Under the pieces are notes generated by a model. It searched no databases. It saw nothing but the letters and a program-made list of their open reading frames with translations, and was not told the DNA's origin. The position numbers and the translations under genes were made by a program. Below, piece by piece: positions 6,205 to 19,736 of a DNA stretch of 23,481 nucleotides. Within the stretch, counting starts at the first letter, position 1; every line of letters begins with the position of its first letter. The stretch is from a virus: IMG/VR virus record IMGVR_UViG_3300020183_005431, positions 1-23,481 of that record; one strand, written 5' to 3'.

Positions 6205-6627
6205 ATGACTAGGAAAGTATACAGGACCGCCCAAGGCAAGATAGTGGATCTCGGTGCCCTGCAACTGCGCAACGAAAACGTGCGTGCAGTAGGCAACATG
6301 CAAGTAAATGCTCGTGGCGACCTTATCGACAGTGGCAATCGTCCGATAGACACCAGGAACAGCCAGGTAGCCCGTCAATACCGCCGCCAGACCACCAATG
6401 TCTCAGATACACCTGTACGGGCCAGCCAGTCGGCTGCTGCGGCCATGCCCCACCCTCCGGAAGATTTCCAAGATGATTTTGTCAAACAGCCGGCATCAGT
6501 AGCAACCACCGCTGCACCCACTGCGGGGTTGGCCGCGGCCATCGCCCGCGCCAGAGAGATACGCCAGGATCCACTGAAAACACATCAAAGTATCGTCGAA
6601 CATCAATCTCAAACAGGAAAATCATGA
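6205..6627 (+). CDS. Conserved phage hypothetical protein
   Basis: A 140-residue basic protein. The first 60 residues, including RTAQGKIVDLGALQLRNENV, then AVGNMQVNARGD, form the conserved part that I recognise from marine T4-like phages; no function is assigned there. The second half is low-complexity, rich in A, T and Q, and ends in a helical AAAIARAREIRQDPLKTHQS segment. Lack of a signal peptide or transmembrane segment suggests a cytoplasmic or virion protein. It has the best ribosome binding site in its neighbourhood (ACGAGGAGACAACA) and a late box, and its stop overlaps the co-chaperonin start (ATGA), so the two are probably made together. Confidence 0.7.
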   Translation: MTRKVYRTAQGKIVDLGALQLRNENVRAVGNMQVNARGDLIDSGNRPIDTRNSQVARQYRRQTTNVSDTPVRASQSAAAAMPHPPEDFQDDFVKQPASVATTAAPTAGLAAAIARAREIRQDPLKTHQSIVEHQSQTGKS

Positions 6628-7007
6628 TCTCTGCGTTTTCTCCACACCGTATCCAGAATCTCCGAGCGCTAGGCAACACTGTGATAGTGGCCGATATGGA
6701 GTTCCAAGGGCGCACTCTCAGCTCAGGTATCATCCTACACAACGACAACGGTACCACTGCCGGCATCAGACCTCGCTGGGGCCAGATCTATGCGGTAGGA
6801 CCAGAACAACGAGACGTGCGTCCAGGACAATGGGTATGCGTGGTGCACGGACGTTGGACCCGGGGTCTTGAAATAGAAGACGATGCCGGTGTCAAAACCA
6901 TAAGAAAAATCGATCCCGACGATATCCTGTTGGTGTCAGACCAAGAACCCGGCACTGATGATACCATCAGCGACGCCATCCAAGCACAAGCCAAAAACCG
7001 TTTCTAG
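6624..7007 (+). CDS. GroES-like co-chaperonin (phage gp31-type)
   Basis: A 127-residue protein. RALGNTVIVADMEFQGRTLSSGIIL (residues about 12-37) corresponds to the GroES core start (RPLxDRVLV...TxGGI) with its mobile loop. PRWGQIYAVGPEQRDVRPGQWV matches the GKVLAVGxG...VxxGDxV block, and DPDDILLV the C-terminal strand. It would cap GroEL during folding of phage proteins, as T4 gp31 does for the capsid protein. It is somewhat longer than bacterial GroES (about 95 residues), with an N-terminal extension and a polar C-terminal tail. It overlaps its neighbours at both ends (ATGA; TAGTG), pointing to coupled translation. Confidence 0.85.
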   Translation: MISAFSPHRIQNLRALGNTVIVADMEFQGRTLSSGIILHNDNGTTAGIRPRWGQIYAVGPEQRDVRPGQWVCVVHGRWTRGLEIEDDAGVKTIRKIDPDDILLVSDQEPGTDDTISDAIQAQAKNRF

Positions 7008-7231
7008 TGGGTTTTCAAAAACCTGATCTCAACATGGCAAGGATGGCCATCGGAGCCAGTATGGTGGAAATCCGCAGTCCCTACAACGACGGATGGACTG
7101 GTTCTGCTTGCAAACACGATCTATATCTGTTAAAATCGTGGTTAGATGATGAATACAATCGTCTACCCAAATTCATCGGAGAAGAACAATGGGAACAAGA
7201 ACGGATTGTCAACATATTGAAAAAGGACTAG
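7007..7231 (+). CDS. Small conserved phage protein, unknown function
   Basis: A 74-residue protein with RSPYNDGWTGSACKHDLYLLKSWLDDEY in the middle and an acidic, charged tail. A GTG at 7007 overlaps the preceding stop (TAGTG) and is preferred; an ATG at 7034 is the alternative and would remove nine residues. I recognise the PYNDGWTxxxCKxDLYxLK pattern from small marine T4-like phage proteins without known function. It ends two bases before the GTG of the clamp-loader gene, whose ribosome binding site (AAGGA) lies inside this gene's end. The position next to gp44 might hint at a replication role, but nothing in the sequence shows it. Confidence 0.6.
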   Translation: MGFQKPDLNMARMAIGASMVEIRSPYNDGWTGSACKHDLYLLKSWLDDEYNRLPKFIGEEQWEQERIVNILKKD

Positions 7232-7232
7232 C

Positions 7233-8159
7233 GTGAAGAAACTATGGACAGAAGCCTATCGACCCAAAACTATTGGTGATTATGTGTTCCGCGATTCGGC
7301 ACAGCGCCAACAGGTACAAAGTTGGGTGGATGCAGGAGCCATACCACATCTGTTGTTTTCGGGAGCACCGGGTGTGGGCAAGACCACGTTGGCCAAGATC
7401 TTGATCGCGGAACTTGGTATCGACGACTACGATGTGCTAGAGATCAACGCCAGCCGTGAAAACTCCGTGGACACAATCCGTGACAAGATCACGGGCTTCG
7501 TGCAAACCATGCCGTTTGGTCAGTTCAAGGTAGTCCTACTAGACGAAGCAGACTACATCTCGCCCAACGGTCAGGCTGCGCTTCGCGGTGTAATGGAGAC
7601 ATATCACGCCAGTGCAAGGTTCATCCTTACTTGTAACTATCCCAATCGAGTCATACCTGCTCTACATTCAAGATGCCAAGGATTCCATATTGAGCGTGTA
7701 GACGTGACCGAATTCACTGCTCGTGTGGCCACTGTCATGGTCACTGAGGGCGTAGAGTTTGATCTAGATACCTTGGATACCTATGTCAAAGCCACCTATC
7801 CCGATCTGCGCAAATGTCTCAACATGTGCCAGATGAAATCTGTGAATAGTATTTTGGTATCACCCACGGGCGACGAAGGTGGTACCAAAGAATGGAAACT
7901 GGAGGTGGTGCAACTGTTCAAGTCCGGAAGGGTGCAAGATGCCCGGCGACTGCTGTGTGCCAACGCCCGGCCCGAAGAAATGGAAGAGATCTTCCGTTGG
8001 ATGTATGACAATCTTGGGCTCTGGAGCACAGATCCGGAAAAACAAGATCAGGCGATCGTGATCATACGCAATGGATATGTGAACATACCCTTGGTGGCTG
8101 ATCAGGAAATTAACCTTGCAGCCACACTTATAGAGCTTAGTCATCTAGATCATGTTTGA
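7233..8159 (+). CDS. Clamp loader ATPase, gp44-like (RFC small subunit family)
   Basis: A 308-residue AAA+ protein. Walker A is GAPGVGKT (44-51), Walker B VVLLDEAD (100-107), sensor 1 lies in LTCNYPNRV and the SRC arginine-finger motif is at 146-148. The N-terminal LWTEAYRPKTIGDYV is the RFC box found in T4 gp44 and archaeal/eukaryotic RFC small subunits. In T4, gp44 forms the 4:1 clamp loader with gp62 and loads the gp45 sliding clamp; no gp62 or gp45 gene is seen nearby. The GTG start has AAGGA seven bases upstream. Its 3' end overlaps the radical SAM gene by eight bases. The assignment is secure. Confidence 0.93.
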   Translation: MKKLWTEAYRPKTIGDYVFRDSAQRQQVQSWVDAGAIPHLLFSGAPGVGKTTLAKILIAELGIDDYDVLEINASRENSVDTIRDKITGFVQTMPFGQFKVVLLDEADYISPNGQAALRGVMETYHASARFILTCNYPNRVIPALHSRCQGFHIERVDVTEFTARVATVMVTEGVEFDLDTLDTYVKATYPDLRKCLNMCQMKSVNSILVSPTGDEGGTKEWKLEVVQLFKSGRVQDARRLLCANARPEEMEEIFRWMYDNLGLWSTDPEKQDQAIVIIRNGYVNIPLVADQEINLAATLIELSHLDHV

Positions 8160-9282
8160 TTTTGAAGCACTAGAACCTACCATAGATCCTTGCAATCGGA
8201 TCTCATTTCTGTTAGACTGGGAATTGACAATGAAATGCAATCTAGATTGCAGTTATTGTCGTACTGGCATTGACGGAAGCCACGACAACACCACTTCACA
8301 TCCTCCTCTACAACAATGTATTGACACCATAGAGTTTATGTTTCAGTATGTAGATCTATACATGCAGCGCAAACCAAAAGGCATTAGATATGTTGTGTTA
8401 AATGTCTATGGAGGCGAATCTCTGCATCATCCTCACATCAGTACTATATTAAAGCATGTGCATCAAATCTATCGAGATACTTACAGGCTTAAATGGCAGC
8501 TCACTGTCACAACTACCACCAACGCCATTGTAAGCAAGAAGAAGTTGGACACCGTCATTCCATTCATAGATGAATTCACCGTCAGTTTCCACAGTGAAAA
8601 CAACCGCAAACAAATGGATCTTTTTAGATCCAATATCATGTATTTGAGAGAAAGGGGTAAACGAATCAAATGTATCATTTTGATGCATGCTAAACCAGAA
8701 CTTTTCCGTCTATCTCAACAAATGATTGAATGGTGCCAACACAACGAGATAAAATTTCTCCCTCGGCAACTGGATCACAATCCAGAACGACATGAATTCA
8801 ATTATATGCCAGAACAGACTGTTTGGTTCGATAAACTCTATAAGGACAAAGCCTATAACAGCCAAAAACACGTGGCGATCCCTATCATCCAAGAGTCAGT
8901 AGATCTTGCCAAGTTAGGTCGTGCTTGTTGTGGAGGTCGTTCTTTCTGCAAGGATCAATCATATAAACAACGAGATTTCTACATATCGAATCGGTTCCCA
9001 AATTGGCACTGTAGCGTGAATGAATTCTTTTTGTTTGTGAAACAAATAAATGGAGAAATCTATACTAACAAAGATTGCAAAATGAATTTCAACGGACAGA
9101 TTGGTCCTATAGGCAATCTAAATAACAAGAAAACCATTCTTGATTACACAAAAAAAAATTTAGAAACAGGATCGATGCCAATCATACAATGTCAAAAAAC
9201 ACGTTGTTACTGTGGCCTGTGTGCTCCCAAAGCCAAACATAAAGACACATACAGTAGCATAATGAAAAAATATCGCGTATGA
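8152..9282 (+). CDS. Radical SAM enzyme with extra C-terminal cysteines
   Basis: A 376-residue protein. C29-NLD-C33-SY-C36 is the canonical CxxxCxxC site for the radical-generating [4Fe-4S] cluster, and LNVYGGES resembles the GGEP motif that helps bind S-adenosylmethionine. Cysteines in ACCGGRSFC, WHCSVNE, KDCKMNF and CQKTRCYCGLC near the C-terminus suggest one or two auxiliary clusters, as in SPASM/twitch proteins. The substrate is unknown; peptide modification is common for SPASM enzymes but not shown here. Two sampled lines (8341, 9061) are about 33-35% GC, far below neighbouring late genes, suggesting separate acquisition. It overlaps the clamp-loader gene by eight bases and the next gene by four. 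No evident leader peptide precedes it. Confidence 0.88.
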   Translation: MFDFEALEPTIDPCNRISFLLDWELTMKCNLDCSYCRTGIDGSHDNTTSHPPLQQCIDTIEFMFQYVDLYMQRKPKGIRYVVLNVYGGESLHHPHISTILKHVHQIYRDTYRLKWQLTVTTTTNAIVSKKKLDTVIPFIDEFTVSFHSENNRKQMDLFRSNIMYLRERGKRIKCIILMHAKPELFRLSQQMIEWCQHNEIKFLPRQLDHNPERHEFNYMPEQTVWFDKLYKDKAYNSQKHVAIPIIQESVDLAKLGRACCGGRSFCKDQSYKQRDFYISNRFPNWHCSVNEFFLFVKQINGEIYTNKDCKMNFNGQIGPIGNLNNKKTILDYTKKNLETGSMPIIQCQKTRCYCGLCAPKAKHKDTYSSIMKKYRV

Positions 9283-9545
9283 GATATTTAATTATCCACT
9301 ACTATCGAAAACCTTCCATGCTCATGGATGAAGTGGTCACAATGGCACAACGGATCAAAACTCGGGACATCCAGAGTGCTGCTGTGATACTTGACTTCCA
9401 GACTCGATCTGTAGTAAAATGCAGCATGGATGGTGTGGTGGTGCCAAAGGATTGGCACCGTATACGAGATTTCTATCATCAATACTACGGCCAGATCATA
9501 GACGACCTGGAGATCTCCTACAGTGAAAAAAATCATACTGACTGA
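9279..9545 (+). CDS. Small conserved phage protein, unknown function
   Basis: An 88-residue protein beginning MRYLIIHYYRKPSMLMDEVV and continuing RIKTRDIQSAAVILDFQTRSVVKCSMDG, then a DW-x-R-I-x-x-F helix and an acidic tail. The pattern (YYxKP...DEVVTxxxxxKTRDxQSAAVILDF) is one I recognise from T4-like marine phages, function unassigned. It starts inside the stop of the radical SAM gene (ATGA) and overlaps the HAD-like gene by 23 bases. GC content is intermediate. It has no catalytic motif I can name and no membrane segment. The start is well supported by the coupling. Confidence 0.7.
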   Translation: MRYLIIHYYRKPSMLMDEVVTMAQRIKTRDIQSAAVILDFQTRSVVKCSMDGVVVPKDWHRIRDFYHQYYGQIIDDLEISYSEKNHTD

Positions 9546-10116
9546 TGTTGATGGAGTGTTATTAGATTGGGAATTCGCATTTGATGTTTACCTTCAGCAA
9601 CATGGTTTCCGCAAGACACAAGGTGGAAACCTCAAATACGACATAGGCAAGCGTTATGGGATAGACCGAGAACAGGGCAAACGACTGATCAAGATCTTCA
9701 ACGAATCTGCGCACATTGGATTCTTGCCACCTTTGCGTGATGCCATGTACTATGTGAAACGCCTACACGAAGAACATGGATATGTGTTCCATGCCATAAC
9801 CAGCCTCAGCCACGATGAAAATGCCTGCGAACTTAGGCGCATGAATCTACGCAAGCTATTCGGAAAAACGGCGTTTGACAGATTCGTGTTCCTGGATACC
9901 GGAGCCGACAAGGATACAGTGCTGGAAGATTACCGTGACTCCGGACTATGGTGGATCGAAGACAAGATAGACAACTGTCGTGCAGGTCAGCAGGTGGGCC
10001 TGAGATCTCTGTTGATGGAGCACGGACACAACATGCAATTCGAGGACCCGGAGATTTCCCGGGTCCGCAACTGGCGAGAAATCTACGATATCATAGTGGG
10101 TAACGATCAGCCATAG
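9523..10116 (+). CDS. HAD-like phosphatase / nucleotidase-like protein
   Basis: A 197-residue protein. TDVDGVLLDWE (residues 7-17) is HAD motif I, in which the first Asp forms the phospho-aspartate and the second is the general acid. HAITSLS (about 91-97) fits motif II with its conserved Thr/Ser, K128 in TGADKDT may be motif III, and WWIEDKIDN (about 147-155) provides the acidic motif IV. The family removes phosphate from nucleotides or other small molecules; the substrate here is not visible. The GTG start at 9523 is chosen because motif I must be near the N-terminus. It overlaps the preceding gene by 23 bases and converges with phoH, overlapping its end by 10. Confidence 0.8.
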   Translation: MKKIILTDVDGVLLDWEFAFDVYLQQHGFRKTQGGNLKYDIGKRYGIDREQGKRLIKIFNESAHIGFLPPLRDAMYYVKRLHEEHGYVFHAITSLSHDENACELRRMNLRKLFGKTAFDRFVFLDTGADKDTVLEDYRDSGLWWIEDKIDNCRAGQQVGLRSLLMEHGHNMQFEDPEISRVRNWREIYDIIVGNDQP

Positions 10117-10874
10117 ATCTCCAACACTGTGGAGATAATGGGATGACGTTGCACATCACGCGACCCTAGTTCACACACTGTTAGGCCCTGGCGTTGTTGC
10201 TGTCTAAGTCGACCAGCAAGATCCAGTAGACCATTGTTGCTCGCGGTCCTGTCGGTCTGTTCAACGTCTCCCGTGACCAGGATGCGACTGTTAGTGCCAA
10301 TGCGTGTGAGCAACATCTTCATCTGATTGGGAGTGGCATTCTGCATCTCATCTGCCACTATCCAGGCGTTTTTAAAAGTGCGGCCTCGCATGAAAGCCAA
10401 GGGCGCGATCTCAATGATACCATCTGCCAACATGTTGGCCACCTCTCTGGGATGATAAAACTCTCGCAAGATGTCCAGCAAAGGACGGGTCCACGGTTCC
10501 ATCTTGGCAGTGAGATCGCCGGGCAAGAAACCGTGTCGTTCATCGTCCACGCCTACCGCTGGTCTAGTAAGCACCAACCTATCGCATTCTCCCATGCGCA
10601 GGGCACGCATGGCGGCCAGCATGGCCAGGTAACTTTTGCCTGTGCCAGCTGGTCCTAGCGCTATCACGATGTGTTGATCAGGATCATTCAAGGCCAATAC
10701 CAGGCGTTCTTGATTGCGGCTTCTGGGGACCAGTTCTATGGTCCTGGGTTTGGCCTTTATGGCAGGTCGGAAATCTATGGTGTTTTCTACTGGATGGTAA
10801 TGCTGCTGTTGCTGCTGACGGCGTTGCGCCTTTGCACCTCTGGCTCTGCTCAAATCCCATTCTCCTTTGGACAT
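10107..10874 (-). CDS. phoH: PhoH-like ATPase
   Basis: A 255-residue P-loop protein. Walker A is GPAGTGKS (74-81), TRPAVGVDDERHGFLPGD (about 103-120) is the PhoH signature, IVADEMQN (172-179) is Walker B and TGDVEQTD (201-208) follows. PhoH-like genes are widespread in marine phages; the protein is an ATPase, possibly linked to RNA helicase activity, and its phage role is unsettled. The N-terminus is basic and carries a QRRQQQQQ run. It is one of two minus-strand genes in the window. Upstream, CCTAAATAC (a late-type box) ends 18 bases before the ATG, with GAGG as a ribosome binding site. Its 3' end overlaps the HAD-like gene by 10 bases. Confidence 0.92.
   Translation of the reverse strand: MSKGEWDLSRARGAKAQRRQQQQQHYHPVENTIDFRPAIKAKPRTIELVPRSRNQERLVLALNDPDQHIVIALGPAGTGKSYLAMLAAMRALRMGECDRLVLTRPAVGVDDERHGFLPGDLTAKMEPWTRPLLDILREFYHPREVANMLADGIIEIAPLAFMRGRTFKNAWIVADEMQNATPNQMKMLLTRIGTNSRILVTGDVEQTDRTASNNGLLDLAGRLRQQQRQGLTVCELGSRDVQRHPIISTVLEIYG
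10117..10136. other. Hairpin at the convergent gene ends
   Basis: ATCTCCA (10117-10123) and TGGAGAT (10130-10136) form a 7-bp stem with a 6-base loop where the HAD-like gene and phoH meet. It lies just past the plus-strand stop and inside the phoH coding end. There is no T tract on either strand, so terminator function is doubtful. Confidence 0.25.
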
Positions 10875-10892
10875 GATTTCGCTACCTCGCAG

Positions 10893-10899
10893 TATTTAG
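10893..10899 (-). promoter_or_regulatory. Candidate late promoter box for phoH (CTAAATA, minus strand)
   Basis: Read on the minus strand this is GCCTAAATACTGCG, matching the plus-strand box at 915-921 over CTAAATACT. It ends 18 bases before the phoH ATG. Only two TAAATA cores were found on the minus strand in the whole window, and this one sits exactly in front of a minus-strand gene. Confidence 0.55.
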
Positions 10900-11002
10900 G
10901 CAGCATAAAGGCAGGTTTTCTGGGTGTGTTTTGTCTTTGCCTCCGCCATAAGTATTAGGATCCACTACCGGCGGCTAGAAATCAGCAGCAACCACCTCGT
11001 TC

Positions 11003-11009
11003 ATAAATA
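11003..11009 (+). promoter_or_regulatory. Late-promoter-like ATAAATA four bases before a start codon
   Basis: TCATAAATAATCC precedes the ATG at 11014 with only four bases between the box and the start. If it works like a T4 late promoter, transcription would begin at or near the ATG, giving a leaderless message. No ribosome binding site is visible before this gene, which fits that idea. Confidence 0.35.
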
Positions 11010-11013
11010 ATCC

Positions 11014-11568
11014 ATGCTCCTTGACAAAGACATATTCAAAAATCACGAAGATTATTGGCTGGTAGCCGAAAACATCAGAGATATCTATCTTTCTGATGGC
11101 AGCCTTTTGAGCCTGATTGACTTTGAACGGGTATTGGATGAACTGGATCTTTATGCGTTCCGGAACTGGCAGTTAGGTGAACTGGTAGCAGGGCCTGACA
11201 TTGGCAGATATACTGTGAGCTGCACGTTCATGTGGCCCGAGCGGTTGATGCCAGATCCTCGAGGTGCACGCCGGCTGCTGCCTTTTGACTGCCGGGTCCG
11301 GTTCAAAAAAACCACTATCAAGATACCGATCAAGATCGAAGAACCCGATGACTTCGTACCTGGCACGCACAAAGCACGCCTGGTAAAAAAGATGGTTTGG
11401 CTGGTAGAGATAACCATGCCCAAGAGCCTCATGAACGACATCCGGACCGGTTCAGTGGAACTGGAAGATCAGGACATAGATCTCCAGGATCTCGATGCTG
11501 CCTACGAAGAAGATCTAGATCAACAGGAATTCCGCCAAGATGAACAAGCCGCCGTTCCCACTGTGTGA
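11014..11568 (+). CDS. Conserved phage hypothetical protein
   Basis: A 184-residue protein. The core, LDELDLYAFRNWQLGELVAG followed by DIGRYTVSCTFMWPERLMPDPRG, then RRLLPFDCRV, is highly conserved in my memory of T4-like marine phages, but function is unassigned. The C-terminal 30 residues are strongly acidic and glutamine-rich (DLQDLDAAYEEDLDQQ). No membrane segment or catalytic motif is recognisable. The ATG at 11014 has no ribosome binding site but lies four bases after ATAAATA; no alternative in-frame ATG exists before the conserved core. It overlaps the next gene by 29 bases, and the two probably act or assemble together (inference). Confidence 0.7.
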   Translation: MLLDKDIFKNHEDYWLVAENIRDIYLSDGSLLSLIDFERVLDELDLYAFRNWQLGELVAGPDIGRYTVSCTFMWPERLMPDPRGARRLLPFDCRVRFKKTTIKIPIKIEEPDDFVPGTHKARLVKKMVWLVEITMPKSLMNDIRTGSVELEDQDIDLQDLDAAYEEDLDQQEFRQDEQAAVPTV

Positions 11569-12085
11569 GGCCCTGGAGTACAAGGACATGGAGGGCATGA
11601 TCAAGCCCACCTTGCACATCGATGAGTTCGCCTCCAAGATGGGTGACGATGATGACATCATCGTGGCATCATTTTTCGTGCGGAGCCAGCAGGCCGCGCG
11701 CGACCTCATGAACTGGTTTGAAAAGGGCTACGACTGGGTGATGGATGCAGATGTGAGCCCAGGCGAGATCAGCCCCGGCAGATATCTTGTGTATATTGAG
11801 ATGCGACGCCGAACATCGGCAGGACAGAAGTTGGCAGATGCTGTGGAGGATCTAGAAACTCTAACCGAACTAAAACTCGCAGACTGGACCATGCACTACG
11901 GCGGTAGAACCGTGCCTTTTACCCGGGAAACATTTGATCAAATGGTGCCCTTGAGTCCAAAAGAATATCGTGCCCGGCGAGAGAGCGATCTCAATGAAGT
12001 GCGTGCTGCAGCTGGTCTAGACACAGTGGCAGTGTTTGAACGCGATCGAGATATCCGCCAACTGCAATCCGCAGCTGGTATATAG
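11540..12085 (+). CDS. Conserved phage hypothetical protein
   Basis: A protein of up to 181 residues. The conserved part is MIKPTLHIDEFASKMGDDDD, then IIVASFFVRSQQAARDLMNWFEKGYDWVMDAD and RYLVYIEMRRR, a pattern recurring in marine T4-like phages with no known function. The C-terminal third (LSPKEYRARRESDLNEVRAAAGL) is helical and charged. The start is uncertain: the ATG at 11540 gives a 29-base overlap with the previous gene, while in-frame ATGs at 11588 and 11597 lie closer to the conserved region. No signal peptide or transmembrane segment. Next to it the composition changes abruptly to the AT-rich gene at 12107. Confidence 0.7.
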   Translation: MNKPPFPLCEALEYKDMEGMIKPTLHIDEFASKMGDDDDIIVASFFVRSQQAARDLMNWFEKGYDWVMDADVSPGEISPGRYLVYIEMRRRTSAGQKLADAVEDLETLTELKLADWTMHYGGRTVPFTRETFDQMVPLSPKEYRARRESDLNEVRAAAGLDTVAVFERDRDIRQLQSAAGI

Positions 12086-12106
12086 CATCAACCATTATTT
12101 TCTTTT

Positions 12107-12814
12107 ATGAAACTAAAAAGTTTTGGGTGTAGTTTTATCTACGGTTCTGATCTCAAGGATTGTCCTCCGGGCATCAATCACAATCATCCTCCGCCGAGCA
12201 AGCTTACATGGCCCTCATTGATAGCTGATCTTTATGGTCTAGAGCACGAATGTTGGGCACGACCTGCAGCCGGTAATTTACAAATTCTGGAAACGCTGCT
12301 GTCACAAGTTAATTTACTAGAGGACGATCTACATGTGATCAATTGGACTTGGATCGACAGATTCAGTTTTACTAGAGAACAGGCCAAGAGTCATAGTTCA
12401 CCTTGGGGCAAGCCTTGGAACACCAATGGTTGGTGTAATATCTTGCCTGGTGATTCAGATCCTGTGTCAAAAATCTACTACAAGAATATACATTCTCAAT
12501 TTAGAGACAAGTTAGAAACTCTATTATGTATCAAGACCGCGCTCGACATACTGATGTCAAACGATAAAAAATTCTTGATGACATACACAGATGATCTAAT
12601 GTTTGAAAAGCAGTGGCATACATCACCGGGAATGCTACATCTTATGGCAGGGGTTGAACCTCTAGTGTTACATTTTGACAATTCTAGTTTTTGGCATTGG
12701 GTAAGGAAAAATGAGTTTGCGATAAGTGAAAAATGGCATCCACTAGAGCAAGCTCATAACGCTGCGGCACATCACATGCGACCCATCATCGATGCCATTC
12801 TGCGTAGAGCCTGA
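12107..12814 (+). CDS. SGNH/GDSL-like hydrolase, AT-rich
   Basis: A 235-residue protein. KSFGCSFIYGSDL (residues 4-16) fits block I of SGNH hydrolases with S9 as possible nucleophile, AAGNLQI (54-60) supplies the Gly-Asn of block III, and WHPLEQAHNAAA (210-221) provides candidate catalytic histidines (H211, H217). The family removes acyl or acetyl groups from sugars, lipids and peptidoglycan; the substrate is unknown. A sampled line (12541) is about 33% GC against about 50% nearby, suggesting separate transfer. No ribosome binding site is seen; the ATG follows ATTATTTTCTTTT, similar to the pyrimidine stretch before 4835. Its end overlaps the minus-strand methyltransferase by 29 bases. Confidence 0.65.
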   Translation: MKLKSFGCSFIYGSDLKDCPPGINHNHPPPSKLTWPSLIADLYGLEHECWARPAAGNLQILETLLSQVNLLEDDLHVINWTWIDRFSFTREQAKSHSSPWGKPWNTNGWCNILPGDSDPVSKIYYKNIHSQFRDKLETLLCIKTALDILMSNDKKFLMTYTDDLMFEKQWHTSPGMLHLMAGVEPLVLHFDNSSFWHWVRKNEFAISEKWHPLEQAHNAAAHHMRPIIDAILRRA

Positions 12815-13382
12815 CCACGCGACCGTTTGTCTCGCTCTGTTCATTGTACTGATGGAAGTCGTGTAGAGCCGCAAAATCCTGCAGCCTGCGATGTGTCCAG
12901 GGATAGAACGGAATGCCCTGGCATTTTTCACTGGCATGATCCCGGCGTCCGGGGTTGAGGCGCCAGTAGATCCTAGCAGTGGGCTTGAGGCAATCTACCA
13001 CTTTCTGTATCTGCCTGGAAATCACAGCGTCATCGCCAAAGTTTAGGCTCCCCAGGCAAACAGCCACATCAAACCGTTTGGAAGCATGGAATTCTTCGAT
13101 CGTGACCCGGAAATCGGCTTCATCTCTTGCGGGATCGATACCCACGACGTTTTTGATCAAATCCTTGAAAGGATTTGTACCACAACCCACGTCCAGTAGC
13201 CACTCGTGCGGTAGTATTTTCTTGGCTATGGTGTCATATGCACTATAACTATATGCATCAATGCTGGGCTGCCAGTGGTGCCGGAAATAATCGTTAAGGT
13301 ATTCTTGATCATGAAACATGAAGCGACTTTCTATGTAAAGTGGGCCAGCGCCTGTGTGATACTTATAGCCATGATTTTCCAT
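12786..13382 (-). CDS. Class I SAM-dependent methyltransferase
   Basis: A protein of up to 198 residues. WLLDVGCGTNPFKD (61-74) is motif I for S-adenosylmethionine binding, VVGIDPARDEAD (79-90) carries the acidic ribose-contacting position, and FDVAVCLGSLNFGDD (104-118) is motif IV. The C-terminal half (QKVVDCLKPTARIYWRLNPG) has the methyltransferase_11 look. Target (small molecule, sugar or protein) is not visible. The ATG at 13382 is the longest start; an alternative at 13319 (MFHDQEYL) would shorten the antisense overlap with the membrane-protein gene. Neither has a convincing ribosome binding site. It is the second of only two minus-strand genes and overlaps plus-strand genes at both ends. 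Confidence 0.8.
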   Translation of the reverse strand: MENHGYKYHTGAGPLYIESRFMFHDQEYLNDYFRHHWQPSIDAYSYSAYDTIAKKILPHEWLLDVGCGTNPFKDLIKNVVGIDPARDEADFRVTIEEFHASKRFDVAVCLGSLNFGDDAVISRQIQKVVDCLKPTARIYWRLNPGRRDHASEKCQGIPFYPWTHRRLQDFAALHDFHQYNEQSETNGRVVRLYAEWHR

Positions 13383-13544
13383 GTGCTAGGAATCACGCCC
13401 TGGAACAGTTTCCTCCAACTCATTGGTGCAGCTGGATGGGTCTACGTGGGATATCGGTGGAATGAACGTGCCATCATATTGAATTTCCTGCCGCAGTTTG
13501 CTATAATCATACCAGGACTGATATATCTCTATGTTACCCAATAA
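13311..13544 (+). CDS. Small membrane protein, unknown function
   Basis: A 77-residue protein with three likely transmembrane segments: about 9-28 (WASACVILIAMIFHVLGI), 31-46 (FLQLIGAAGWVYVGY) and 55-75 (FLPQFAIIIPGLIYLYV), joined by a short RWNERA loop. An upstream in-frame GTG (13275) is less likely because it lies deeper in the antisense methyltransferase gene. I recall similar small membrane proteins with WNxxxQLIGAxxWxYVGYRW in marine phages, function unknown. It overlaps the next gene by 14 bases and heads the set leading to the TctA/TctC pair. It is too short to be TctB (about 150 residues, four segments), though a membrane partner role cannot be excluded. Confidence 0.65.
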   Translation: MKHEATFYVKWASACVILIAMIFHVLGITPWNSFLQLIGAAGWVYVGYRWNERAIILNFLPQFAIIIPGLIYLYVTQ

Positions 13545-14115
13545 AATATTCATGATAGGCGTGCCTGGTTCGCGCTGGTCAGGCATCGCCCAAAACATCG
13601 AAGACAACGTTCCAGGATTCAATACGTCAGATCGCAGGCCCGATCGCGTGTACAGCCATCACAACTTTTCGGGACATCTAGGTGTGTATTTTGGCACAGG
13701 ATGGGAACATGATACCAGTCTCGATGAATCCAATCTAGATCATGGTTTTGCACACACCCAAGGCACACGCATACTCAAGAGCCACGAGTGGGCCTATCAC
13801 TTAGACGAGATACATCATCGCTATCCCGACTCCTGGGTCTTCTTGGTGTACCGACCCGATATGAGTGCATACTCGTGGTGGCACCAGGCCGGCGGTTTCA
13901 ATATCACCTATCCTCTATACGAACCTTACTATCATGACAGCGTGCGCATGATGTCAGAGATCATGCGGCAGAATCAAGCCATCATGCAGTTCGCTCAGCG
14001 GCATGATCTAGAGTGGCGACACATTTCAGGCCGCTGGATCCAAGAACATTTTGGTCAGTATGTAGAGCCCAGTCGCCGTGATCCTGATACTCTTGTTACT
14101 TTACTAAAACCGTGA
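13531..14115 (+). CDS. Sulfotransferase-like protein
   Basis: A 194-residue protein. IFMIGVPGSRWSGIAQ (6-21) resembles the 5'-phosphosulfate-binding loop at the N-terminus of sulfotransferases (a modified P-loop), and WVFLVYRPDMSAYSWW (about 102-117) fits the second PAPS-contacting segment (the R..S region). Members of this type occur in marine T4-like phages without known substrate. It ends in GTGA, overlapping the TctA-like gene by four bases, so the two are likely translated together. The ATG at 13531 lies inside the membrane-protein gene. The family call rests on two short motifs and could be another P-loop-like fold. Confidence 0.55.
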   Translation: MLPNKIFMIGVPGSRWSGIAQNIEDNVPGFNTSDRRPDRVYSHHNFSGHLGVYFGTGWEHDTSLDESNLDHGFAHTQGTRILKSHEWAYHLDEIHHRYPDSWVFLVYRPDMSAYSWWHQAGGFNITYPLYEPYYHDSVRMMSEIMRQNQAIMQFAQRHDLEWRHISGRWIQEHFGQYVEPSRRDPDTLVTLLKP

Positions 14116-15554
14116 TTGAATACATCGTCTGGACCTTGCTGGGCACCCTGTATGGTGTGATAATCGGCATCATGCCCATGGCCGGTGTCACGACGGGCCT
14201 GCTCACAGTGTTTGGCCTGGCCGACCAGTTCCTAGGCAACCCCTATCTGGGCGTGGTGTTCATGACCAGTCTCATAGCTGCCTGCAGCACCGCTGACAGT
14301 TTCACTAGCATACTCACCGGTATACCAGGATCTAATACCACAGCAGCGTCGATAATCGACGGCTATCCCATGGCCAAGAAAGGCGAAGCCGGCCGTGCCA
14401 TCGGCATCGCGCTGATGGATAGTACCGTGAATGGACTGTTCTGGGGTGCTATCGCTTTTGGGTTGATGCCGTTTTATAGCAATCTCATAATGTTTTTTGG
14501 CATACCAGAATTCATGGCTTTCATGATCCTGAGTCTAGCCTGTGTGGGTTTCATTACCACACGAAATCCTTGGCTCAGCATAGTCAGCATCGCGATAGGT
14601 ATCTTCATTGGTATGATTGGACAGAATCCAGCCACCGGAGCTCATAGGCTCACATTTGGTTGGGAGTATCTGGCGGCCGGAGTGCAGATGATACCCTTGA
14701 TAGCCGGCTTGTTCGCCGTGCCCGAAGTATTGCAGGGGTTCCGGTATCAGCACAACAGGCCAGAACCCATACGAGACTACTGGCAGCAGTTGCGCCAGGG
14801 ATTCGGTGATTGCTGGCGCTGTCGTGGTGATGTTGCCCGCGGTGGTGCTATAGGTTTTTTTACAGGTCTGCTGCCTGGTGTGGGTGGCACCATCGGTGAC
14901 ATCATGGCCTATGGTGCCACGGTGGCACGACACAAGACAGAAAAATTTGGTGCAGGCAATCCTCGTGGACTCTTGGGCTGCGAAGGCGCCAACAACGCAC
15001 AGAAACCCGCGAGTCTCATACCCACAGTGCTGTTTGGCATACCAGGTGCACCTTTCGCTGCGATCATGATGGCCATATGTATGTACTTCGGACTAGAGCT
15101 GGGATCACCAGCTCTGCTGGAAGATCGAGATTTTATCACTGCCTTGGGCGTGGCCTTCATTGTGGGCACAATTTTGTGCTTTGTGCTCTGTATTTTCACC
15201 ACACGCTGGATCGTGAAAATCTTGGAAATACCCTATTGGATCTATGCCGCCGTGATCATGACCATAGTTATTTGGAGCTGCTTGCAGTATTCGGGAACCT
15301 GGAATGATCTATATATCTTGGTTATTTGCTCGTTACTGGGCATGATCTGTGTGCGATACAAGATTTCTCGACCAGCTGTGTTGGTGGCATATATACTGAG
15401 TGAGAAGTTGGAAAACTACTCACAACAAGCCTTGACGCTGTACTCTTTCAGCGATCTACTACAACGTCCTCTGTTTTTAACTCTTCTTATCGTAAGCGTC
15501 CTTGTCATATCCTGGAGCCTGCTGCGACGGAATCGAGGCATCGATTTCCATTAA
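14112..15554 (+). CDS. TctA-like large subunit of a tripartite tricarboxylate transporter
   Basis: A 480-residue polytopic membrane protein with about 10-12 hydrophobic segments. Two family hallmarks are present: TGIPGSNTTAASIIDGYPMA (69-88) continuing KKGEAGRAIG, and in the second half GLLPGVGGTIGDIMAYG (252-268) with EGANNAQKPASLIPTVLFGIPG (291-312). Length fits TctA (about 500). TctA forms the inner-membrane channel of the TTT family, taking up tricarboxylates or other carboxylates delivered by a periplasmic TctC. TctB, the small membrane subunit, is not found here. The GTG start overlaps the preceding stop (GTGA). The ligand cannot be read from sequence. Transporters of this size are rare in phages. 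Confidence 0.92.
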   Translation: MIEYIVWTLLGTLYGVIIGIMPMAGVTTGLLTVFGLADQFLGNPYLGVVFMTSLIAACSTADSFTSILTGIPGSNTTAASIIDGYPMAKKGEAGRAIGIALMDSTVNGLFWGAIAFGLMPFYSNLIMFFGIPEFMAFMILSLACVGFITTRNPWLSIVSIAIGIFIGMIGQNPATGAHRLTFGWEYLAAGVQMIPLIAGLFAVPEVLQGFRYQHNRPEPIRDYWQQLRQGFGDCWRCRGDVARGGAIGFFTGLLPGVGGTIGDIMAYGATVARHKTEKFGAGNPRGLLGCEGANNAQKPASLIPTVLFGIPGAPFAAIMMAICMYFGLELGSPALLEDRDFITALGVAFIVGTILCFVLCIFTTRWIVKILEIPYWIYAAVIMTIVIWSCLQYSGTWNDLYILVICSLLGMICVRYKISRPAVLVAYILSEKLENYSQQALTLYSFSDLLQRPLFLTLLIVSVLVISWSLLRRNRGIDFH

Positions 15555-15577
15555 TCATCAACCAATGGAGATATCAA

Positions 15578-16663
15578 ATGATTAAAAAACTTCTAGCATC
15601 AATGGTAGCCAGCGCGTCCATGTTCATGACTGTTTTGCCTAGTTCAGCCTGGGCCGAATTCCGCATGATAGTACCACAAGCAGCCGGCAACGGCACAGCA
15701 GTATGGGCCGCGATCATAGCCCAACACCTGGAAAAACAACTGGGTGAAAAGATCGTGATCCAGCACATACCTGGTGCCAAAGACATACCGGGCTTCAATG
15801 AATTCCACAACAAGCTGAGACAAGATCCCAAGGTGATCATGGTCAGCCACGGCGGCAATGGCATCGGGTATCTGGTGGACAAAGTAGACTATGATTACAA
15901 ACACTACGATTCCATCGGTATGATGAATCTCAACATCGTGGTTGGTAAACACATAGGCAACCCTGCAGATGGTCGCGATCGCAAAGTGCGCATCGCCGGT
16001 GCATCTGGACAGGAAACAGACGGTATGGCTATAGCCATGTTGTTATGTGGCAATTTGCCTACCATGCAGGCCTATCTCGACTGTTGGAATCAGCGAGCTG
16101 TGTGGGTTAACGGAGTACCGGGCAACGAGCGCAGGTTAGGCTTCATGCGACGAGAATTTGACGTGGCTCGTGAGTCGGTAGTATCTTGGTTCAAATACTA
16201 TACCGATCCCAAGGCGGCTGCCGAAATCTGGTTCCATCACGGGGTTTATGATCTGGACCGTAGGGTGCAAAAAGAAGATCCTAACTTTGCCGCAGGTCTG
16301 AGATTTGAAACACAATTCCGCAAACTGCATGGTACGGAACCAAAAGGCCCTTTGTACGATGCTTACACCTTGAGCCGTAATTTCCGTGATGTGCTGCAAA
16401 AAGCACTGTGGGTTAACAAAGGCAATCCCAATACCGAGAGATTACGAGCGGCACTCACCAAGATGATCACGGATCCAGATGCGGCAGCTGCTTTAGAAAA
16501 AGACACAGGAAAATACGATTGGATCATCGGTAATGCCGGGAATCAAGTTGTAGATCGCATCCGTGGCAATATTACCGAACCAAAGCTGCGAGACATGGTT
16601 TGGTGGCACGAAAACGCCTACAAGTTTCCCAGCGTGTACAAACCCGAACTTATAGTGCGCTGA
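15578..16663 (+). CDS. TctC-like periplasmic solute-binding protein
   Basis: A 361-residue protein with a clear Sec signal peptide: MIKKLL, hydrophobic core ASMVASASMFMTVLP, and SSAWA cleavage after residue 26. The mature start EFRMIVPQAAGNGTAVWAAI fits the TctC beginning (xIxxIVPxAxGGxxDxxAR), and VIQHIPGAKDIPGFNEF fits the VExxPGAGGxxG motif. It would bind a carboxylate in the periplasm and pass it to the membrane subunit just upstream. It diverges from typical bacterial TctC in the middle, with long inserts such as QAYLDCWNQRAVWVNGVPGN. GGAG lies seven bases before the ATG, the first proper ribosome binding site in this set. The next gene follows after two bases. Confidence 0.85.
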   Translation: MIKKLLASMVASASMFMTVLPSSAWAEFRMIVPQAAGNGTAVWAAIIAQHLEKQLGEKIVIQHIPGAKDIPGFNEFHNKLRQDPKVIMVSHGGNGIGYLVDKVDYDYKHYDSIGMMNLNIVVGKHIGNPADGRDRKVRIAGASGQETDGMAIAMLLCGNLPTMQAYLDCWNQRAVWVNGVPGNERRLGFMRREFDVARESVVSWFKYYTDPKAAAEIWFHHGVYDLDRRVQKEDPNFAAGLRFETQFRKLHGTEPKGPLYDAYTLSRNFRDVLQKALWVNKGNPNTERLRAALTKMITDPDAAAALEKDTGKYDWIIGNAGNQVVDRIRGNITEPKLRDMVWWHENAYKFPSVYKPELIVR

Positions 16664-16665
16664 TC

Positions 16666-17352
16666 ATGCAGCCGCTGCCAGATCAAAACTCATATATCAG
16701 CAGCTGGGAATGGTGCCGAGATCGGTCTCGGTACCATTTTGATTGGCAGCGCCATGACAAACCAGGCGAGTGGTATCAGCTAATAGGTAATATCGAACCT
16801 AGCTGGCAACAAGAACTTGCTGATATCCAGCATCGAGCAAGACCTATAACCTGGGCCACGCGAAACTATCTAGGACTTGGAGTGAGTCCTATGCTGGCAC
16901 AAGAACAACACGATCTCGAACAGGCCGGAGCAGATCATGATCACGAGCTCACAGACTGCGTGGAAGATTTTTCAGGATATCCCCGACTGCAGAAATTGGC
17001 TGATTTTTTCCAAGTGCAAGAAGCCAAAAAAGTAATCCACACACAGATCACCGGGCAGATGTTCAATCTACACATAGACAAATTGTATGCTCGATGTCCC
17101 AATGATCCTGACCGAATCGTTCGCATCACCATAATGTTGCAAGACTGGTTACCGGGACATTTCTATCTCTACGGTACCAGGATCTACAGCCACTGGCGGG
17201 CAGGAGACGTGCATATCTTCGACTGGCCTAATGTACCTCATGCCACTGCTAACGCCAGTTTGTGGCCCAGAAGCACTATGCAGATTACCGGAATTAGATC
17301 ATCCCGCACAGATGAGTTGTTAAATAACCCACAACAATGGAGACTAGAATGA
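16666..17352 (+). CDS. 2OG-Fe(II) oxygenase-like protein
   Basis: A 228-residue protein. FNLHIDKLY (133-141) carries the HxD iron ligands (H136, D138), GDVHIFDWPNVPHATANAS (180-198) carries the distal His (H192), and WPRSTMQITG (200-209) includes an Arg (R202) suited to holding 2-oxoglutarate. Together these fit a double-stranded beta-helix dioxygenase. Substrates of phage members include nucleic acids, proteins and small molecules; none is indicated. An upstream in-frame start (16600) would overlap the TctC-like gene by 64 bases, so ATG 16666, two bases after that stop, is preferred; it has no ribosome binding site and is probably coupled. Its end overlaps the kinase remnant (ATGA). Confidence 0.75.
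   Translation: MQPLPDQNSYISSWEWCRDRSRYHFDWQRHDKPGEWYQLIGNIEPSWQQELADIQHRARPITWATRNYLGLGVSPMLAQEQHDLEQAGADHDHELTDCVEDFSGYPRLQKLADFFQVQEAKKVIHTQITGQMFNLHIDKLYARCPNDPDRIVRITIMLQDWLPGHFYLYGTRIYSHWRAGDVHIFDWPNVPHATANASLWPRSTMQITGIRSSRTDELLNNPQQWRLE
17320..17326 (+). promoter_or_regulatory. Candidate late promoter box before the kinase remnant
   Basis: TTAAATAACC lies in the end of the oxygenase gene and ends 22 bases before the ATG at 17349, the same spacing as the other boxes. GGAG (17339-17342) provides a ribosome binding site. This suggests the truncated kinase gene was once normally expressed. Confidence 0.4.
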
Positions 17353-17504: not shown

Positions 17505-17932
17505 TCAAGAGTGAAACAGCACTACGACACGGTATCGATAACACACCGCCAGAAGATGTGATAGAAAATCTACGCACATTATGCGAGCAGGTTCTGCAAC
17601 CCTTGCGCACGGCCTACGGTCGTGGCATCAAGGTCAATTCGGGATATCGTTCACCAGATGTAAATGCAGCAGTAGGGGGCAGTCGCACTTCGGATCACTG
17701 CAAAGGACAGGCCGCAGATATCGAAATACCTGGCATACCCAACTATGATCTGGCCAAGTACATCGAACAGTATTTCAACTACACTCAGCTAATACTAGAA
17801 TTCTACACTCCGGGCATACCCGATTCGGGATGGGTGCATGTGAGCTACGATCCCAACAATCTCAAAAAGCAGAGCCTCACTGCCATGCGCGAAAACGGCA
17901 AGACAGTGTACAAACCAGGATTGCTGGCTTGA
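17468..17932 (+). CDS. M15-family peptidase, probable endolysin
   Basis: A 154-residue protein. FSLNEMIKSETALRHGIDNTP (7-27) is the start seen in Peptidase_M15_3 phage endolysins. VNSGYRSPDVNAAVGGSRTS (56-75), then DHCKGQAADIE gives zinc ligands H77 and D84, and GWVHVSY (121-127) gives H124. Such enzymes cut the peptide stems of peptidoglycan (D-Ala-D-Ala carboxypeptidase or L-Ala-D-Glu endopeptidase type). No signal peptide is present, so a holin would be needed for export; none was identified with confidence. It is followed immediately by spanin-like genes, which supports the lysis role. It is expressed from the strong late box upstream. Confidence 0.88.
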   Translation: MQLTENFSLNEMIKSETALRHGIDNTPPEDVIENLRTLCEQVLQPLRTAYGRGIKVNSGYRSPDVNAAVGGSRTSDHCKGQAADIEIPGIPNYDLAKYIEQYFNYTQLILEFYTPGIPDSGWVHVSYDPNNLKKQSLTAMRENGKTVYKPGLLA

Positions 17933-18411
17933 TCATAGGCATCCTGCCGGCCATACGCATGATCCTGGTAGTGGTGGTGGTGGCCATCATCTCAGGTGGT
18001 CTCTACTATGTGATCAATCTCAAGGCCGATCTAGCTACCAGTGAAGCCAACAACCGCCAGCTAGTAGATGCCACGCGCGAACAGAACATGCTGATCGAAC
18101 AGATGAAGCGAGATGTCACTGCGATCCAGCAGGCCAATGCGGACCTGCGGGGCCAGGCCGAACGGCAGCGCAGAGATGTGGAGGCCTTGAGTTCTAAATT
18201 CAGCAAGAGAGATTTCGGTGCCCTGGCAGCAGAACGACCCGAGGCCGTGGAACGAGCCGTTAATCGTGGTACCCGGAATGCCCTGCGCTGTCTGGAACTG
18301 GCCGCAGGTGCGCCACTTACAGATCAAGAAAAACAAGCCAAAACGCCCATGGAGGCCAATCGTGAATGTCCAAACCTTATTGATCGCAACTACGCTGCCC
18401 CTGGTCCTTAG
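17929..18411 (+). CDS. Inner-membrane spanin-like protein (Rz-like)
   Basis: About 160 residues from a TTG that overlaps the preceding stop (TTGA) with AGGA eight bases upstream; an ATG at 17959 would remove ten residues. A single transmembrane segment (about 10-30, MILVVVVVAIISGGLYYVI) is followed by a long charged helical region (about 34-90, with REQNMLIEQMKRDVTAIQQA) suited to a periplasmic coiled coil. This is the topology of i-spanins, which join with an outer-membrane lipoprotein to fuse the membranes in the last step of lysis. The gene for a lipoprotein starts inside its 3' end in another frame. No sequence homology to lambda Rz is claimed; the call rests on topology and context. Confidence 0.65.
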   Translation: MIIGILPAIRMILVVVVVAIISGGLYYVINLKADLATSEANNRQLVDATREQNMLIEQMKRDVTAIQQANADLRGQAERQRRDVEALSSKFSKRDFGALAAERPEAVERAVNRGTRNALRCLELAAGAPLTDQEKQAKTPMEANRECPNLIDRNYAAPGP

Positions 18412-18745
18412 CGGTTGCGGCTCTTTCGGTTGGAAAGGCGTCCAGCCCGTGGAGATACAGAAACGCGCAGTGGAACGCACGCCGCTCAATCTGCCGGATC
18501 CTGCTCCTCCTCGAGCGCGCGAGTTGGAATGGATCATCGTCACCCCTGACAATGCCTCCGCTGTTTGGCAGCGGCTGCGCGATGCCAACTCCGACGTGGT
18601 GGTATTTGCCTTGACCGATGATGGTTACGAGACCTTGTCACTAACAATAGCCGAATTGCGTAATTTCATAGCCCAACAACGCGCCATCATCCTGAAATAC
18701 CGAGAATATTACGAACCCAAAAAGGCAGATGAAGCAGCGAAGTGA
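18362..18745 (+). CDS. Outer-membrane lipoprotein, o-spanin-like (Rz1-like)
   Basis: A 127-residue protein from a GTG with a perfect GGAGG six bases upstream (18351-18355). The signal sequence VNVQTLLIATTLPLVLSGC ends in a lipobox, LSGC (16-19), so C19 would be lipidated. A proline-rich linker, RTPLNLPDPAPPRARELEW, follows as in Rz1-type proteins, then a compact domain with IIVTPDNASAVWQRL and VVVFALTDDGYETLSL. The first 50 bases lie inside the Rz-like gene in a different frame, the classical overlapping spanin arrangement. It is longer than lambda Rz1, and the C-terminal domain is shared with other marine phage lipoproteins as I recall. The end overlaps the amidinotransferase-like gene by 17 bases. 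Confidence 0.7.
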   Translation: MNVQTLLIATTLPLVLSGCGSFGWKGVQPVEIQKRAVERTPLNLPDPAPPRARELEWIIVTPDNASAVWQRLRDANSDVVVFALTDDGYETLSLTIAELRNFIAQQRAIILKYREYYEPKKADEAAK

Positions 18746-19736
18746 TCTGCCGGTCATCAACAGCCACGATTCGTGGAGTCCGCTACAAGAAGTATGGTTA
18801 GGTGATGTGTACCCTGCATCGTGGTACGAACATCTTGATGCTCCTGTGCGAGATGTGTTCCAGCGGCTGACTGAAATCACACAGCAAGATCTGGCTGTGA
18901 TCCAGCAAACCATGGAATCATTTGATATCCTGGTGCAGAGACCCCGTTACCAACACATCGATCACTATCTGCGAGATGGCAATCTCATCAAGCCGGATAT
19001 CTGTCCCAGAGACACTTGCTTGGTGGTAGGAAACTGCCTCACGTTGCCAGAATCTCACAGGCCCTGGCAACACGTGATCGACCAATACAGCCAGGACTCA
19101 AGATGCCAGGTCCGTCCCGGTTTCACTGGCACGATCAATGGTGCCAATGTTGTGAGGATCGGTCGAGACATCATCATAGACCGAGACTGTTATGATTTTG
19201 AATATGACGATCGCTGGCCTGGGTATCGCGTGCGAGTGGTCAGCAACGGCGGACACATGGATGGTTGCTTCGCCATCCTCAGGCCTGGTCTGATCCTGGC
19301 CAATCACTACTGGGACGATTATGAGCGCACCTTTCCCGGCTGGGAGATCATACGATTAGATGACCCTACCTATCATGCGGCACCCAGCACAGGGTATCAA
19401 CAGCCCTACCCAGTATACAACGGCAAGTTCTGGGATACCACTGTGGGCACCAACCGCAGTTTTAACCAGCATATCATAGATCATGCCCTTGATTGGGTGG
19501 GTTGTTATACAGAAACCTATTTCGAACTAAATTGTTTAGTGATCGATCCTGCCAACGTGATAATGCTGGCAGAGAACCAAAACTTGGCCGACACGCTGAA
19601 CCACCACGGTATCACTGTGCATTGGGTACCATTCCGCGCACGCAGTTTCTGGGATGGCGCCATGCACTGCCTTACCGTGGACATCCGCCGGCTCAGCCAG
19701 ATCACGGACTATTTTCCCGAACTCTATGGCCATTAA
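18729..19736 (+). CDS. Amidinotransferase-like enzyme (guanidine-modifying superfamily)
   Basis: A 335-residue protein. NSHDSWSPLQEVWLGDVYP (11-29) matches the start of glycine/inosamine amidinotransferases; CPRDTCLVVGN (92-102) gives the PRD motif; GGHMDGC (174-180) gives the catalytic His (H176); and GAMHCLTVDIRR (310-321) gives the catalytic Cys (C314). The superfamily transfers or hydrolyses the amidino group of arginine or related guanidines through a covalent Cys intermediate. Glycine amidinotransferase makes guanidinoacetate plus ornithine; whether this one transfers or hydrolyses is not clear. Length fits. It starts inside the spanin gene by 17 bases and runs into the next gene by 11. 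Possible roles include altering host arginine pools or decorating DNA or surface sugars (inference). Confidence 0.85.
   Translation: MKQRSDLPVINSHDSWSPLQEVWLGDVYPASWYEHLDAPVRDVFQRLTEITQQDLAVIQQTMESFDILVQRPRYQHIDHYLRDGNLIKPDICPRDTCLVVGNCLTLPESHRPWQHVIDQYSQDSRCQVRPGFTGTINGANVVRIGRDIIIDRDCYDFEYDDRWPGYRVRVVSNGGHMDGCFAILRPGLILANHYWDDYERTFPGWEIIRLDDPTYHAAPSTGYQQPYPVYNGKFWDTTVGTNRSFNQHIIDHALDWVGCYTETYFELNCLVIDPANVIMLAENQNLADTLNHHGITVHWVPFRARSFWDGAMHCLTVDIRRLSQITDYFPELYGH

Follow-up and report, generated by a model that had tools for sequence, protein, structure and literature searches.

The closest described systems are transporters of the TTT family (TC 2.A.80; Salmonella TctCBA), in which the membrane channel TctA is accompanied by a four-helix subunit, TctB, either separate or fused, and by a periplasmic TctC/Bug-type binding protein. 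The ligand loop of TctC has the form P-F-x-A-G-G-x-x-D with a near-universal Asp, fused TctAB proteins are rare, and the need for TctB is an open question of the family; TRAP transporters cannot do without DctQ, their counterpart of that subunit (PMC5812351). The channel has been named in viral sequence before: on SUP05 viral contigs, a single domain hit led to the listing of tctA among putative viral metabolic genes (PMC4164917), a report that one review cites, and 'tricarboxylate transport' is mentioned for a norB/nirK myovirus scaffold from an oxygen-minimum zone (PMC8115048). Both place the channel gene or its function in viral contigs, as here, whereas the available parts of the two reports describe no conserved TctC partner, clade, cassette or question of TctB. 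No account of a conserved TctA-TctC pair or clade was found in the literature searched, most subscription journals and preprints lying outside that search.

The window analysed here, the whole stretch of 23,481 nucleotides (positions 1 to 23,481 of IMG/VR record IMGVR_UViG_3300020183_005431), carries such a pair (Table 1). Like the Salmonella system, it combines a full-length TctA channel with an adjacent periplasmic TctC/Bug-type binding protein; it differs in that no TctB gene or domain was found, the binding protein falls outside PF03401 and the ligand loop is changed. Since the third subunit was sought and not found, we class the pair as a TTT variant rather than a full member. With moderate confidence, we read it as a phage-specific, TctB-less TTT variant that would act as an importer made in infection.

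Table 1. Features of the Tct locus in the window and members of a small membrane protein family in related contigs.
Feature	Sequence	Position	Strand	Basis
SAM-methyltransferase-like, cassette member	Window	12786..13382	-	Methyltransf_23, E 3e-4 here, 3e-6 in a relative
DUF6552, ~78 aa, two hydrophobic segments, optional cassette member	Window	13311..13544	+	PF20189, 4.7e-15
Sulfotransferase-like P-loop protein, cassette member	Window	13531..14115	+	GxPGS(R/K)WS motif
TctA, membrane channel subunit, 480 aa	Window	14112..15554	+	GTG start, Pfam PF01970
TctC/Bug-type solute-binding protein, 361 aa	Window	15578..16663	+	Predicted fold, TctA adjacency
Putative Sec-type signal peptide, residues ~1-26	Window	15578..15655	+	KK n-region, hydrophobic stretch, A-x-A
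2OG-Fe(II)-oxygenase-like, cassette member	Window	16666..17352	+	Invariant HxD...H...R in 12 relatives
117-aa three-helix family member	L010	12539-12889
117-aa three-helix family member	L011	7641-7997
117-aa three-helix family member	L036	15714-16067
117-aa three-helix family member	L042	4698-5051

The TctA reading frame is matched by PF01970 over its full length (profile positions 1-422 of 423; 3.5e-93, 313 bits against a cut-off of 28.9), which bears out the intact 480-residue channel of the initial annotation. Many columns are invariant across 24 phage TctA relatives, including GIPG..AA...DG and RGG..G...G..PG.GG..D, and the AlphaFold model (pLDDT 87) shows the all-helical pattern of a membrane protein. 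One point that counts against an importer is that this model found no significant fold match in the PDB. The starts are coupled to neighbouring genes, as had been noted: the GTG of TctA shares four bases (GTGA) with the stop of the upstream reading frame, and the ATG of TctC lies 23 bases after TctA, preceded by a GGAG ribosome-binding-like site. Both frames are uninterrupted, again as described from the sequence.

The binding protein is far more diverged. The TctC frame has no match to PF03401 even at E<=1, nor to any other Pfam family, and its phmmer and profile matches to Bug/TctC chains are weak (E 0.016-0.2). The predicted fold is more telling: the AlphaFold model (pLDDT 89.4) gave 17 best PDB matches that all belong to the TctC/Bug family, at E 4e-10 to 3e-7 and before any other fold, among them TphC, TBP, MatC, BugD, Bug27 and AdpC. 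It resembles the structures of TphC (7ndr), TBP (8hk9), MatC (6hke), BugD (2f5x) and AdpC (5oei) with TM-scores of 0.50-0.58 on query length, but shares only 9-16% identity with them, lacks the loop Asp and belongs to a family with two invariant cysteines, C157 and C169. Bacterial homologues, at 21-30% identity, adjoin TctA in their own genomes. The TctC-like label therefore stands on fold and on homologues next to TctA, where Pfam cannot show it, and the claimed divergence from bacterial forms is borne out. The putative signal peptide likewise looks intact, with a single hydrophobic stretch at residues 5-23 that ends in an AWA|E-type cleavage site; within its A-x-A motif, A26 is invariant and A24 at least 90% conserved in 30 phage relatives. 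Bug-domain proteins of uncultured Caudovirales phages in BFVD share 10-14% identity with the phage TctC, so other phage Bug proteins exist.

The ligand loop departs from the family pattern. The phage TctC reads P-Q-x-P-G-x-G-T-S/A and retains the P and one G; the Asp has become Ser, Ala or Thr in 53 of 53 phage representatives and the Phe has become Gln in 49 of the 53, which counts against an importer. With the Asp lost and the Phe replaced, the phage ligand or its coordination may differ from those of known Bug proteins. A Ser at this site may substitute in part for the Asp through its hydroxyl, by analogy with a proposal for other Bug proteins (PMC5812351). Two positions beyond the Asp site, a Trp is invariant in the phages and is shared by most of the bacterial relatives examined for this loop. 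The loss of the Asp in all phage copies, the very long stem of the phage clade (1.6 changes per site) and the sensing roles discussed for orphan TTT binding proteins (PMC5994714) could also mean that TctC, or both proteins, have been repurposed as a periplasmic sensor, a blocker or a membrane factor directed at the host or at competing phages. This is improbable, as TctA retains its channel motifs under strong purifying selection, and the nearly obligatory pairing of the two genes agrees with transport, whereas a lone sensor would not call for it.

For the importer that we favour, we infer expression, export, docking, transport, its direction and the substrate class as follows. The phage would make TctC in infection and the host Sec system would export it to the periplasm, where it would fold as a two-lobed binding protein. 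There it would capture a small, probably carboxylate-bearing solute and dock on TctA in the inner membrane, which would move the solute inward using an ion gradient and so supplement host uptake or take its place. Phages carry metabolic enzymes; a conserved, phage-owned importer built on a solute-binding protein would mean that infection could change bacterial uptake from the surroundings.

The pairing is conserved well beyond the window. Profile-based scans of IMG/VR returned at least 540 TctA-related and at least 471 TctC-related stretches; the family is thus carried by hundreds of viral contigs, which corrects the initial picture drawn from a single phage. TctC lies within 1.5 kb on the same strand in 77 of 80 IMG/VR loci, and as these were selected by TctA alone, the count is free of circularity. 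The three exceptions are L241 (on the contig of L042), where TctC is found 1.5 kb further on, and two loci near a contig end. The search for a conserved order in other phage contigs, which had been suggested, revealed two orders: A-C in 62 and C-A in 13 of the 75 contigs of a first set, and TctC downstream of TctA in 31 and upstream in 46 of the 77 loci of a second. The sampled C-A phages form one nested clade in the TctA tree, so adjacency survived rearrangement. In most contigs the two genes overlap or lie close together (-8 to +20 bases). Across 75 contigs, the pairwise distances of TctA go with those of TctC (r 0.93), a correlation that owes something to common ancestry in addition to any co-evolution. 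The chief exception is a clade (L027, L059, L085 and L093) in which the TctC loop is of another kind, GSGGAVW. L027 holds two TctC genes of different loop type (6632-7678 and 10010-11062), one adjoining TctA and the other 3.4 kb off, as if the binding protein were exchangeable.

The surroundings of the pair are those of a phage. In a broad sense the name T4-like is apt: the window encodes a T4-type clamp loader (phrog_168, 3e-74), which shares 54% identity with its nearest isolates, the PA5oct-like jumbo Pseudomonas phages. PhoH, tail-fibre-type proteins and an endolysin-type peptidase are encoded as well. Relatives of the pair occur on contigs of 140-167 kb, and the longest viral contig with such a relative reaches 342 kb; among 25 whole records, 7 have a T4 portal and 6 a T4 capsid protein. 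Selection on both genes is purifying: dN/dS is mostly 0.03-0.18, with about 0.01-0.11 for TctA and 0.05-0.18 for TctC among informative pairs, those with saturated or almost no change being uninformative. Intact frames under such selection, on records with T4 portal and capsid genes, make the pair a candidate viral auxiliary metabolic gene set. On one jumbo-size contig of 316,012 bases (L313/L044), the Tct pair is found together with T4 portal and capsid genes, and several others measure 306-342 kb.

As the window is a single metagenomic contig, bacterial DNA might have been joined to phage DNA in assembly, or host genes picked up recently without being fixed. We give this explanation next to no weight. 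Contigs from other metagenomes (L002, L013 and L014) show the same gene junctions around the pair, and finding the sulfotransferase-TctA and TctC-oxygenase joins in independent assemblies rules out a chimera. Further, the family spans hundreds of viral contigs and forms a single phage clade, and a search of 754 genomes of two classes gave no close bacterial relative besides two contigs from metagenome-assembled genomes (MAGs). Of the two findings that the initial annotation named as fatal to its claim, neither was seen: no chimeric join appeared in the assemblies compared, and the tree holds phage relatives. The pair is thus genuinely viral and not host contamination. One concern for an importer is that no isolate phage in INPHARED carries the pair, and TctC gives no match there. 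The TctA matches in INPHARED (24-29% identity, on small or bacterial-looking records) were taken for host sequence and rejected as phage relatives. No PHROG family matches TctA and TctC of the window or of two distant relatives, so standard phage annotation would miss the pair.

Phylogeny, a further check proposed at the outset, places the phage channel apart from ordinary bacterial forms. Among 102 TctA proteins placed in one tree, the two MAG contigs group with 44 phage representatives in a single clade (SH-aLRT 100) on its long stem. Its sister group is a bacterial long-form TctA of 642-727 aa (L109-L117, L121-L126, L149), with the ordinary TctA of ~500 aa on the other side. The extra C-terminus of the long form is a TctB in L112 (5.4e-8, above cut-off), matches TctB more weakly in L117 and L111, and does not match in L113. 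These loci resemble the phage loci in placing TctC directly before TctA, as do 13 phage contigs, and their long TctC is nearest to the phage TctC and mostly shares the loop Trp. They differ in the C-terminal TctB-type part, which the phage proteins of 473-504 aa do not have, and in a TctC only ~25% identical to that of the phages. From sequence comparison, the phage channel would have either descended from this TctA-TctB fusion subfamily or shared a common ancestor with it. In the long-form loci, PrpF lies nearby in L111, L112 and L114 by Pfam and in L115-L117 by eye, MmgE/PrpD in L109, and FAD-binding dehydrogenases in L109 and L117; from these, tricarballylate- or aconitate-type acids may be guessed, by analogy, as the ancestral ligand and as a hint to the substrate class of the phage importer. 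Of the MAG contigs, L096 is short, phage-like and from a Pelagibacter bin. In the other, L095 (marine bacterium B5-7), the Tct pair at 8551-12391 is accompanied by sulfotransferase-like and methyltransferase-like genes, amid bacterial-looking YcaO, TfuA and UDP-GlcNAc acyltransferase genes; L095 could carry a phage-derived insertion, or the cassette could belong to the bacterium itself.

The absence of TctB beside the pair, noted from the start, was confirmed as far as the family profile reaches. PF07331 has no match at E<=10 in 25 whole viral records (that of the window and 24 related ones), a weak search for so variable and poorly conserved a family, so that a diverged TctB could still lie elsewhere in a large genome. 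The phage TctA proteins end without a TctB part, nor does any small membrane protein regularly accompany the pair: no family occurs near it in more than 11 contigs. In this lineage, to judge from the gene content, TctB would be either dispensable or borrowed from the host. By analogy, the essential DctQ counts against an importer without TctB. A bolder reading, which we hold only tentatively and regard as somewhat doubtful, is that the phages carry a virus-specific TTT branch stripped of TctB, in which TctA and TctC would make up a true two-component secondary importer that depends on the binding protein and has a non-canonical ligand loop. If so, phages and not bacteria would hold the minimal form of the system. 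The lineage bears on the need for TctB, as it apparently has none and TctA with TctC can be tested alone.

Two small membrane proteins deserve mention here. DUF6552 is present in 10 of the 25 whole records and near the Tct pair in 11 contigs; it was rejected as a general stand-in for TctB, being absent from large records, among them G001, G007 and G014, and found elsewhere beside the sulfotransferase-like gene without Tct. A family of 117-aa three-helix membrane proteins occurs in 9 of 85 contigs, directly beside TctC or TctA in several phages; Pfam gives it no link to TctB, and it could be a TctB analogue in the phages that carry it. In L172, from the marine single-cell virus AG-345-D19 (cyanophage-type, with a psbA-like gene), sulfotransferase-like and DUF6552 genes are adjacent at 11200-12269 without Tct.

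The pair does not stand alone. It sits in an uninterrupted plus-strand run (13311-17352) of DUF6552, sulfotransferase-like, TctA, TctC and 2OG-oxygenase-like genes; the oxygenase-like ATG follows the TctC stop by two bases, and its frame also has an upstream TTG at 16600. The genes that the initial annotation read as an auxiliary function belong to the phage, but as part of a larger cassette, and a viral tctA had been listed earlier (PMC4164917). Relatives of the methyltransferase-like gene are found in 66 of 85 contigs, of the sulfotransferase-like gene in 59 (58 within 3 kb of the pair) and of the oxygenase-like gene in 46 (all within 3 kb). One sulfotransferase-like relative matches Sulfotransfer_3 at E 0.001, below cut-off; the 2OG-like protein has no Pfam match, and as neither family matches PDB profiles, both names rest on motifs. 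The window and L002 have in common gp44, HAD-like, PhoH, g11014, g11540, g12107, DnaJ and PDF genes. The block from the methyltransferase-like gene through DUF6552, the sulfotransferase-like gene, TctA and TctC to the oxygenase-like gene precedes PhoH in L002 but follows g12107 in the window; in these two phages, which are otherwise similar, it is transposed relative to PhoH, g11014, g11540 and g12107 (window 9523-17352, L002 8072-15240). This difference in position indicates that the cassette moves as a unit. The late-promoter motif TATAAATA occurs in the window at chance level, and a promoter and terminator scan of the window gave results near shuffled expectation.

Based on this company, the transporter might instead supply a solute to the cassette enzymes, for a modification pathway and not for energy metabolism: 2-oxoglutarate for the 2OG-Fe(II)-oxygenase-like protein, for example, or a precursor that undergoes methylation or sulfation on some target such as a surface glycan. 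The recurrence of the three enzyme genes, nearly always within 3 kb, and their shift with the pair as one unit speak for such a role, as does a cyanophage in which a weak relative of the oxygenase-like protein lies inside a glycosyltransferase island. However, the AG-345-D19 contig has methyltransferase and sulfotransferase genes without Tct, and some contigs have Tct pairs without the sulfotransferase-like or oxygenase-like gene, so the link is loose; T4-type phages also gather unrelated genes in such islands. We therefore consider a modification pathway unlikely, though a more serious contender than repurposing, and retain the importer as the preferred reading.

A few other genes of the window merit note. 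A GroES/gp31-like co-chaperonin (phrog_931, 2e-11) is encoded at 6624-7007, and a radical SAM protein weakly similar to peptide maturases and viperin-like enzymes at 8152-9282. The product of 18729-19736 is a weak arginine deiminase/amidinotransferase-like protein (PF02274, E 0.005; phrog_25854, 2e-11). Finally, two overlapping reading frames at 17830-18745, after the M15 endolysin, resemble a spanin pair, the second with a lipobox-like VLSGC.
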